Shown here: positions 16,573 through 37,695 of the stretch, piece after piece
Position numbering within the stretch: the stretch's first letter is position 1
Layout of the letters: each line of letters starts with the position of its first letter
NCBI GenBank assembly: GCA_013001165.1
Contig: JABDNC010000285.1
Coordinates: 1-45,911, forward strand
DNA length: 45,911 bases
Origin: Erythrobacter sp.
Lineage (GTDB): Bacteria; Pseudomonadota; Alphaproteobacteria; Sphingomonadales; Sphingomonadaceae
Direction: 5' to 3'
The notes under the pieces: model-generated
Databases searched by the model: none
Told to the model about the DNA's origin: nothing
What the model saw: only the letters and a program-made list of their open reading frames with translations
Translations under genes and position numbers: made by a program

Positions 16573-16597
16573 GACCTGCCCCTTTCCCTACGGCCCT

Positions 16598-30370: not shown

Positions 30371-30465
30371 ACTCGTCCCTGAATTAACCACGCGAATCGG
30401 CAGGAACGTGTCACTGGCACGCTCATTGCAGATCAAGAGGTTAAGAAAGGAGTGCGCGCCACACC

Positions 30466-30708
30466 ATGTGGAAGAAGGTCAAAAGGCTGTTCGTGATCAA
30501 GACGCGCTTCGAAGCGTATCTGATCATCTACGCCCTTGCCCTTGGCGCAATGACCCGCGGCGCCGACTACACCGTACAATATCCCGGTTTCGGCGGATAT
30601 CTGCTGATGGCAGCCACGGCAGGTGCGGTGTTCCTCGGCGGAGCAAAGATCCTCGACGCGATCCGTTACGAGCGTGAGGCGGAAGAGCGCTCGAAAGAAT
30701 CCGACTAG
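30466..30708 (+). CDS. Small membrane protein (80 aa)
   Basis: Preceded by AAGGAG-like spacing (gaaaggagtg); MWKKVKRLFVIKTRFEAYLIIYALALGAMTRGADYTVQYPGFGGYLLMAATAGAVFLGGAKILDAIRYEREAEERSKESD with two hydrophobic segments. Confidence 0.7.
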   Translation: MWKKVKRLFVIKTRFEAYLIIYALALGAMTRGADYTVQYPGFGGYLLMAATAGAVFLGGAKILDAIRYEREAEERSKESD

Positions 30709-35004: not shown

Positions 35005-35799
35005 ATGGCAGCCAAGGCAAACGGACGCTGCAAGGGTAAGCTGGCGCTGGTAACGGGTGCGGCACAGGGACTTGGCGCGGCCCATGCCCGCAGGCTGGCC
35101 GAAGAAGGCGCGAGGGTCCTATGCACCGATATCAACGGAGACGGCGCCGAGGCGACAGCTGCCCGTATCGTCGAGGAAATGGGTGCCGGTCATGCGGTCG
35201 GCGTCCAGCATGACGTGACCGATCCCGATGCATGGGAACGCGTGGTCGATGTCGCCGAAAGGGAGCTCGGCGGGCTCAACGTGCTGGTCAATAATGCCGG
35301 GATCGGTGTGGGCGGCAATATCGAGACCTGTAAGTTCGAGGACTGGCAGCGCTGTTTTTCGGTCAATGTCGATTCCATCTTTCACGGCTGCCAGAAGGCG
35401 CTTCCGCTTATGCGCGAACATGCGCCGGGATCGATCATCAACATCTCGAGCATCGCCGGCCTGATCGCCAGCGACACAATGCCTGCCTACAATGCCAGCA
35501 AGGCGGCGGTATGGATGCTGTCGAAGTCCATTGCGCTACACTGCGCGAAGAACCGCATGGATATCCGCTGCAACTCGGTACATCCGACCTTCGTCGACAC
35601 GCCGATCCTCGACGGGACGGCGATCAACCACAATATCGACAAGGATGTGCTGTTGGAAAAGCTCGCCCGTCAGATCCCGCTCAAGAAGGTCGGCGAACCG
35701 GACGATATCGCCAATGCGGTGGTTTATCTCGCCAGTGACGAGAGCAAGTTCATGACCGGTGCGGAGCTGAAGCTCGACGGCGGTATCTCGGCCATGTGA
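35005..35799 (+). CDS. SDR family oxidoreductase
   Basis: GKLALVTGAAQGLGAAHARRLAEEGARVLCTDING; NNAG; YNASKAAV; GGISAM C-terminus. Confidence 0.93.
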   Translation: MAAKANGRCKGKLALVTGAAQGLGAAHARRLAEEGARVLCTDINGDGAEATAARIVEEMGAGHAVGVQHDVTDPDAWERVVDVAERELGGLNVLVNNAGIGVGGNIETCKFEDWQRCFSVNVDSIFHGCQKALPLMREHAPGSIINISSIAGLIASDTMPAYNASKAAVWMLSKSIALHCAKNRMDIRCNSVHPTFVDTPILDGTAINHNIDKDVLLEKLARQIPLKKVGEPDDIANAVVYLASDESKFMTGAELKLDGGISAM

Positions 35800-35850: not shown

Positions 35851-35873
35851 ATCCCGGACCTTCTGTCCGGGAT
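35851..35873. terminator. Hairpin 2 between convergent SDR and pspC
   Basis: atcccggac-cttct-gtccgggat, perfect 9-bp stem, no T-run. Confidence 0.45.
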
Positions 35874-35891: not shown

Positions 35892-36110
35892 TCAGTCTGC
35901 GATCAATCCGATCGCGAGATAGATGAGGATGAAGCTGCCGAAGCCGAGCAGCGTCCCCAGGACGAAGCCGACGCGAACCAGCGTGGTGTCGATCCCGAAG
36001 TAGCGGCCGATGCCGGCGCAAACGCCCATCAGCTTGCCGTTGGTGCGGTCGAGCCGGAAAGACTTGCTCGGGCTGACGGCATTGTCATCGCGGAATTTCA
36101 GGTCGTTCAT
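35892..36110 (-). CDS. PspC domain-containing protein
   Basis: 72 aa; RLDRTNGKLMGVCAGIGRYFGIDTTLVRVGFVLGTLLGFGSFILIYLAIGLIAD. Confidence 0.93.
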   Translation of the reverse strand: MNDLKFRDDNAVSPSKSFRLDRTNGKLMGVCAGIGRYFGIDTTLVRVGFVLGTLLGFGSFILIYLAIGLIAD

Positions 36111-36226
36111 GCCAGTACTCCATTGGGCGATGCGGGGACGATAGCAGCTGCAAAGAAAGCTGCCGAGATGGTAAGCGAGAAGGCGGCTGCGAAAAGCTTG
36201 CTGCCATATTTTTCGAGGTCGAACAT
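36107..36226 (-). CDS. Micro-protein, 39 aa, single hydrophobic segment (paralog B)
   Basis: Not in ORF track. MFDLEKYGSKLFAAAFSLTISAAFFAAAIVPASPNGVLA*; ATGA overlap with pspC; similar to 36266-36385. Confidence 0.72.
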   Translation of the reverse strand: MFDLEKYGSKLFAAAFSLTISAAFFAAAIVPASPNGVLA

Positions 36227-36265
36227 AGATCCTTTTCCTATTGAATTAGTGTGGGCGCTAATGGC

Positions 36266-36385
36266 TCAGGCGATGAGGCCGGCCGGGCTAGCGGGGACGA
36301 TTGCCATTGCCATCATGATGGCCGAGGCAGCGAAAGCGAAGACCGATGCGAGGGCCTTGTTGTTGGAAGCGTCGAAAGCGAACAT
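36266..36385 (-). CDS. Micro-protein, 39 aa, single hydrophobic segment (paralog A)
   Basis: Not in ORF track. MFAFDASNNKALASVFAFAASAIMMAMAIVPASPAGLIA*; same length and same MF...AIVPASPxGxxA ends as paralog B. Confidence 0.72.
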   Translation of the reverse strand: MFAFDASNNKALASVFAFAASAIMMAMAIVPASPAGLIA

Positions 36386-36472
36386 TTGTGTGTATCCCTG
36401 AATTATCTTGACCGTTCACCGGACCATCCGGTGGACACCCCAAGCATTGCAACCCCCGTGCCAAAATCGAAA

Positions 36473-36492
36473 AATGGCTGAATTCAGCCATT
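36473..36492. promoter_or_regulatory. Perfect 20-bp palindrome in divergent intergenic region
   Basis: aatggctgaattcagccatt equals its reverse complement; lies between the micro-ORF/pspC unit (minus) and recF (plus). Confidence 0.5.
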
Positions 36493-36615
36493 CTTAACTG
36501 AACCGGCGGCACCGGGCTCGTTAATGAAACCGAAAGGTTGGTGAAAATTCCCAACTTTTGGATTTCGCTTTCCGGTGGCGACGAGCGGAGGCTCGCGCTA
36601 GGGCTTGCGTGCCCC

Positions 36616-37695
36616 ATGCTCGACCGCATTTCCCTCACTCGCTTCCGTAATCACGAGGTCACCGAACTGCGGGGCACCTCGTGCTTCAACCTGCTTGTCG
36701 GAGAAAACGGCGCGGGGAAAACCAACGTGCTCGAGGCGCTTTCGCTGCTGGCGCCCGGGCGCGGGCTGCGGCGGGCAGCGCTGGCCGACATGGTCCAGCA
36801 CGATGCTCAGACCGGCTTCACCATCGGTGCGGACCTGTTGCAGGAAGACGGCGAGGCGATCCGGCTCGGCACCTATACCGAAAGCGATCACCCCGCCCGT
36901 CGGCGCGTACGCATCAATGGCGCGGAAAGCAGCGCAACGGCCTTGGGCGAATGGCTCGCCCTTACTTGGCTTACCCCGGCGATGGACGGCCTCTTCACCG
37001 GCCCCGCTGCCGATCGGCGCAGGTTCATGGACCGCATGGCGCTGGCGCTCGATCCTGCGCATGCCGCCTATGCCTCGCGCTATGAAGCCGCGCTCCGCGA
37101 ACGCAACCGACTGCTCACAGACGACCGCGCGCCCGAAAGCGCCTGGCTCGATGCGATCGAGGCGCAGATGGTCGAACACGGAGGGAAGCTGATTGCCGGT
37201 CGCGCGATGCTGGTCGACACGCTGATGAGCCGCATCGCCCATATGCCGAGCGAACCCTTCGCCCGCCCCGCCCTGACCTATGCGCCCGGTGGCACCGACA
37301 ATGCCGAAGCGCTGTCGCAGGCGCTGTTCGACGGGCGCGCGAGGGACCGTGCGGCCCAGCGCACCCTGTCAGGCCCTCACCGCGACGAGCTGGAAGTGGT
37401 TCATGCCGCCAAGCGCGTACCTGCTGCCCAAAGCTCGACCGGCGAACAAAAGGCCATGTTGGTCGCCATCACGCTCGCCCATGCGGCACTTGCGGCACAG
37501 GGACGCAGCGGTGTCCTGCTGCTCGACGAGGTTGCTGCACATCTCGATCCGGTCCGCCGCGCCGCACTGTTCGACCAGCTTGCTGCGAGCGGCGCACAAG
37601 TTTGGATGACGGGAACCGAACTGGCCCCCTTCGACAGCATTTCCAATGAAGCCGCCGTCTGGCGCGTGACCGGCGGCAGCGTCGAACGGATCTAG
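36616..37695 (+). CDS. recF: DNA replication/repair protein RecF
   Basis: LTRFRNHEVTELRGTSCFNLLVGENGAGKTNVLEALSLLAPGRGLR, SGPHRDEL, STGEQKAML, LLLDEVAAHLD. Confidence 0.96.
   Translation: MLDRISLTRFRNHEVTELRGTSCFNLLVGENGAGKTNVLEALSLLAPGRGLRRAALADMVQHDAQTGFTIGADLLQEDGEAIRLGTYTESDHPARRRVRINGAESSATALGEWLALTWLTPAMDGLFTGPAADRRRFMDRMALALDPAHAAYASRYEAALRERNRLLTDDRAPESAWLDAIEAQMVEHGGKLIAGRAMLVDTLMSRIAHMPSEPFARPALTYAPGGTDNAEALSQALFDGRARDRAAQRTLSGPHRDELEVVHAAKRVPAAQSSTGEQKAMLVAITLAHAALAAQGRSGVLLLDEVAAHLDPVRRAALFDQLAASGAQVWMTGTELAPFDSISNEAAVWRVTGGSVERI

Follow-up and report, generated by a model that had tools for sequence, protein, structure and literature searches.

Many bacteria protect their inner membrane by a Psp (phage-shock) response. 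In a 45,911-nt stretch of Erythrobacter sp. DNA, here called the window, a small pspC gene is preceded by two very short open reading frames, which raises the question whether these frames are genes and what their products would do beside a phage-shock gene. A sequence-only reading had described them as tandem paralogous microproteins, possibly partners of PspC. Translation of the minus strand gave the same two frames (microprotein 1, 36266–36385; microprotein 2, 36107–36226), each of 39 codons, separated by 39 nt, with the stop codon of the second overlapping the start of pspC as ATGA at 36107–36110. The pspC gene (35892–36110, minus strand) encodes a protein of 72 aa in which a domain search detected PspC (PF04024, E 2e-17). 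It is followed by a terminator-like hairpin, ATCCCGGAC-AGAAG-GTCCGGGAT (35851–35873, minus strand; fold of the stretch -22.4 kcal/mol, no following T-run), in the gap to a convergent short-chain dehydrogenase (SDR) gene recognised from its sequence (35005–35799, plus strand). On the other side lies the divergent recF (36601–37695, plus strand; TIGR00611, 242 bits), which marks the locus as a conserved one.

The paralogy of the two frames was borne out: they are each other's best matches genome-wide (E 0.003 in the whole-genome search; phmmer 4e-6 to 8e-6). A third weak match in the window, at 16574, lies inside another frame and was rejected as chance. For the orthologs from Qipengyuania and Erythrobacter we calculated pN/pS and dN/dS. 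In frame, pN/pS was 0.475 for copy 1 and 0.282 for copy 2 as opposed to 1.28–1.86 in the shifted frames, and 49–60% of the differences among orthologs fall on codon position 3. Median dN/dS, the measure by which selection on the frames had been proposed to be judged, was 0.45 and 0.32 for the microproteins and 0.25 for pspC. Upstream array copies that do not overlap with pspC are likewise under purifying selection. The peptide sequences diverge fast. In a 40-sequence profile, the core shows almost no variation at its A, I and P positions. Judged by the sequence, both 39-residue frames are real genes for tiny proteins. Neither product matched a Pfam or NCBIfam family at E≤1, the PspG, PspB and PspC models included, and no relatives were found in PHROGs, the PDB or plasmids.

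Both microproteins are predicted single-span membrane proteins. Among members of the pspC-linked type, 95% carry K or R in the N-terminal part, followed by one hydrophobic helix, and all tails are free of K and R. For microprotein 2 an AlphaFold2 model shows one helix at residues 4–32 with moderate confidence (pLDDT 72, pTM 0.38). Hydropathy, charge and model together fit membrane proteins that would span the bilayer once with the N-terminus inside.

When a single peptide was used as query, matches were obtained in 48 of 201 genomes of the same family, often as tandem pairs or triplets about 150–170 nt apart. With the 40-sequence profile the count rose to 136 of 401 genomes of the family at E≤0.01, the faintest of these matches probably being noise; in other families of the class, 237 genomes yielded a single match at E≤1e-5, a spurious one inside a 553-aa frame. 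In named genomes, where we located the loci with pspC as bait (80 pspC loci), tandem arrays recur upstream of pspC in Qipengyuania, Erythrobacter and their relatives. The order recF, microproteins and pspC, SDR is conserved, and in most arrays the last microprotein overlaps pspC by the four bases ATGA or GTGA. In Novosphingobium and Croceicoccus the same slot is held by far more divergent proteins of 40–54 aa; those linked to pspC in Novosphingobium are related to the window's microproteins by profile comparison (probability 95.6%). Stand-alone arrays with the same promoter also exist (loci L104, L105 and L259–L261), in which tblastn detected no pspC within the stretch read.

Upstream of the frames lie three elements which the sequence-only reading did not contain: a sigma-54 promoter, an upstream activating sequence (UAS) and a hairpin at the 5' end of the message. 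The sigma-54 promoter, TGGCACGGGGGTTGCA (-24/-12; 36448–36463, minus strand), is a near-perfect box found at all 31 homologous loci of the family, 91–113 nt upstream of the first conserved Arg/Lys codon, and at most of the 80 named pspC loci. Just past the predicted transcription start the mRNA could fold into a 5'-terminal hairpin, CACCGG-ATGGT-CCGGTG (36417–36433, minus strand). With the 5' UTRs aligned by MAFFT, RNAalifold returned no pairs because stems of unequal length were misaligned; we therefore folded each sequence separately and compared it with shuffles. Across 66 loci the mean z was -2.1 and a stem of at least 5 bp was present in 83%, while the stem sequences differ. The hairpin plausibly protects the 5' end of the mRNA.

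Upstream of the promoter lies the UAS, TTGGGAATTTTCACCAA (36538–36554, minus strand), a 17-bp near-palindrome of the type TTGGTGAAATTTCCCAA whose 3' end is located 74 bp before the -24 element; the same distance is the median upstream of TGGCAC over the microprotein-pspC promoters, the family's pspA promoters and four stand-alone microprotein promoters. Motif and spacing are common to the pspA and stand-alone promoters. A UAS score of at least 20 was reached by 87.5% of the microprotein promoters, 45% of the family's pspA promoters and four of four stand-alone promoters, as against fewer than 0.2% of shuffles. Neither glnK nor the pspA promoters from other orders had the element. We then defined a strict composite pattern, a sigma-54 box separated by 71–77 bp from the UAS, and the regulon counts given here rest on searches with such patterns. 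It has exactly two matches in the genome of the window, the microprotein-pspC operon and pspA, whereas the reversed pattern has none in 201 genomes. The UAS shared with pspA, the two matches and the empty control together strongly suggest that PspF acts at the microprotein operon. Direct similarity of the UAS to the E. coli pspF-pspA region is modest (12 of 17 positions identical, with 78 of 2000 shuffles as good). In E. coli, PspF is known to bind the UASs of both pspA and pspG (PMC3709507). The genome of the window encodes a pspF divergent from pspA (TIGR02974, 473 bits, cut-off 444). It is present in 188 of 201 family genomes, among them all 48 that are microprotein-positive, but since pspF is so common this co-occurrence says little. 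Of the other regulators encoded in the genome, which include NtrC and PrsR, we had considered the PEP-CTERM regulator PrsR as activator and dropped it once the UAS proved to match the pspA promoter. With promoter and UAS the link to envelope stress, previously drawn from the PspC domain, is supported far more strongly than could have been known from the frames and pspC.

Between the UAS and the -24 element lies in addition a perfect 20-bp palindrome, AATGGCTGAATTCAGCCATT (36473–36492, minus strand), conserved at microprotein promoters. An extended palindrome pattern matched solely the microprotein operon and pspA, which had made it the first candidate for the PspF site. We abandoned it for the UAS further upstream because a similar element is present at the NtrC-type sigma-54 promoter of glnK (z 4.0), and it is thus not specific to PspF. 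The glnK-like palindrome, seen in the window and near position 1480 of locus L035, may belong to sigma-54 promoters of the clade in general.

The composite pattern also allowed us to see what such promoters drive. Among 29 readable loci with the pattern in the family, 28 have between one and four microproteins (about 28–56 aa) as their first genes, located at a roughly constant distance from the box whether pspA or pspC follows or the microproteins stand alone. In the most extreme array (L257) four tandem peptides, mostly of 28 aa, precede pspC. At another locus (L254) a composite PspF/sigma-54 site leads a secreted-looking Ser/Gly-rich protein of 107 aa, with no microprotein. In the genome of the window itself, a 50-aa single-helix ORF (MYDRKFFSTQ...HVEIA; positions 1558–1710 of locus L056, contig C263) lies between the sigma-54 promoter and pspA, and a separate PspB of 98 aa follows pspA. 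ORFs of similar shape lead pspA across the Sphingomonadaceae. Profile comparison detected no homology between these and the window's microproteins, which share architecture and slot; the class is therefore defined by position and shape. We infer a function common to the pspA-leading and pspC-leading microproteins from the slot only, since homology between them is not demonstrable. Elsewhere in the Alphaproteobacteria either pspA comes straight after the promoter or a small ORF of another kind intervenes; in three loci from other alphaproteobacterial families (L236, L237 and L244) a small ORF with a C-terminal helix (such as ...ESWLFFAAGLVLGG) was seen between the sigma-54 promoter and pspA.

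We think it likely that the locus is an extra PspF/sigma-54 operon of the Psp response, making single-span membrane microproteins together with PspC in response to inner-membrane damage. In E. coli membrane damage frees PspF from its inhibitor PspA (PMC3709507). By the same route, PspF released from PspA would bind the UAS at 36538–36554 and drive sigma-54 RNA polymerase at the promoter at 36448–36463. The resulting mRNA would begin with the 5' hairpin and carry the two microproteins and then the small PspC coupled through ATGA. With the N-terminus in the cytoplasm, a single Ala/Phe-rich helix and a short uncharged tail outside, the microproteins would in all likelihood enter the inner membrane under stress and serve there as small Psp effectors, comparable to E. 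coli PspG in their regulation or to LiaI and PspB in scale, acting as partners of PspC or PspA or by altering membrane packing. By analogy with PspG, a PspF-regulated inner-membrane effector of E. coli (PMC2763126), small Psp effectors in the membrane would be the simplest reading. Of the earlier proposal that the peptides are partners of PspC, the envelope-stress setting stands, but the restriction to PspC is too narrow, since there are stand-alone arrays without pspC and non-homologous microproteins in the pspA slot. Tentatively, the picture may be wider: essentially every PspF-controlled operon of the Sphingomonadaceae would open with hypervariable, often tandem single-helix microproteins. 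As slot, promoter and helix are conserved but the sequence is not, this would imply a biophysical role in membrane repair or re-packing, not one specific binding partner.

Other functions could be imagined for frames in this position. They might be leader ORFs that set the translation of pspC through the ATGA coupling, with peptides of little function of their own. The very wide conservation of the ATGA/GTGA overlap and the fast divergence of the peptides are what such leaders would be expected to show; however, pspC does not always follow, and because stand-alone arrays with the same promoter exist we regard a pure leader role as very unlikely. The purifying selection on non-overlapping upstream copies and the nearly invariant A, I and P positions argue in the same direction. 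The peptides might instead leave the membrane. In 39 of 40 sequences AxA stands immediately before [IV]xP, which could be a signal-peptidase I site releasing a tail of about 10–15 aa from a Sec-exported peptide as a signal or periplasmic ligand, e.g. for PspC, and PAxA motifs resembling cleavage sites occur in pspA-leading microproteins of other genera. Yet the 28-aa members (L257 and L258) stop at the hydrophobic stretch and have no tail to release, and a regular AxA is missing from the Novosphingobium branch. Cleavage at AxA, in line with the processing motif suggested in the sequence-only reading, may occur; the export reading as a whole we consider rather unlikely.

Finally, size, the single hydrophobic helix and the tandem arrays are similar to those of stress-induced membrane-active peptides, which would lower the membrane potential and quieten metabolism as is reported for YohP, or act like type I toxins. 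Such an activity we consider unlikely: the genes share one operon with pspC and a promoter type with pspA, hence a protective regulon, and as to toxins, Rfam at the locus gave no toxin or antitoxin RNA but only a chance miRNA match below the gathering score.

Several known proteins resemble the proposed effectors in part. One of them is E. coli PspG, also a small inner-membrane protein made from a separate second transcription unit of the PspF/sigma-54 regulon (PMC3709507, PMC2763126), but PspG has two predicted helices, whereas the window-type microproteins have one helix in about 28–56 aa and are often tandem, hypervariable and coupled to pspC. PspB and PspC of the psp operon are small inner-membrane Psp proteins as well, and the window's operon does encode a PspC-domain protein; this domain is confined to the downstream gene, and the microproteins carry neither. 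LiaI of Bacillus, which recruits LiaH to the membrane, and PspM of actinobacteria are likewise membrane proteins whose genes accompany PspA-type stress systems (PMC9239133, PMC11237479), with other regulators and another size. YohP (27 aa) and further small membrane proteins that E. coli makes under stress resemble the microproteins in having a single helix in fewer than 50 aa (PMC12719787). YohP is reported to lower the membrane potential and quieten metabolism (PMC12719787), and it induces Psp; unlike the window's operon with its predicted PspF control, it is not described as a PspF target. The predicted PspF/sigma-54 promoter and UAS would place the operon in the Psp regulon, with proteins outside the PspB, PspC and PspG families.

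The microproteins are apparently an undescribed part of the phage-shock response. A term search in two large surveys of Psp neighbourhoods, both resting on known domains, found no mention of such sphingomonad genes, which is not proof of novelty (PMC9239133, PMC11237479). If our reading is true, a large environmental family has a core portion of its Psp regulon that has been overlooked because the genes comprise only about 28–56 codons and diverge too far for family models. Conservation of the promoter and UAS makes the microproteins findable by position, not by sequence, and offers a clear genetic test of the role of tiny membrane proteins under stress.

Two further observations concern promoters of this kind. 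The window contains a second sigma-54-like box, TGGCACGCTCATTGCA (30415–30430, plus strand), ahead of a membrane-like ORF of 80 aa (30466–30708, plus strand) that has no NCBIfam match and whose promoter shows no PspF-type UAS. In one genome (G122), stand-alone arrays whose promoters are almost identical occupy the very ends of two contigs, both ends in each case (L109–L112), which looks as if the arrays or inverted copies of them broke the assembly.
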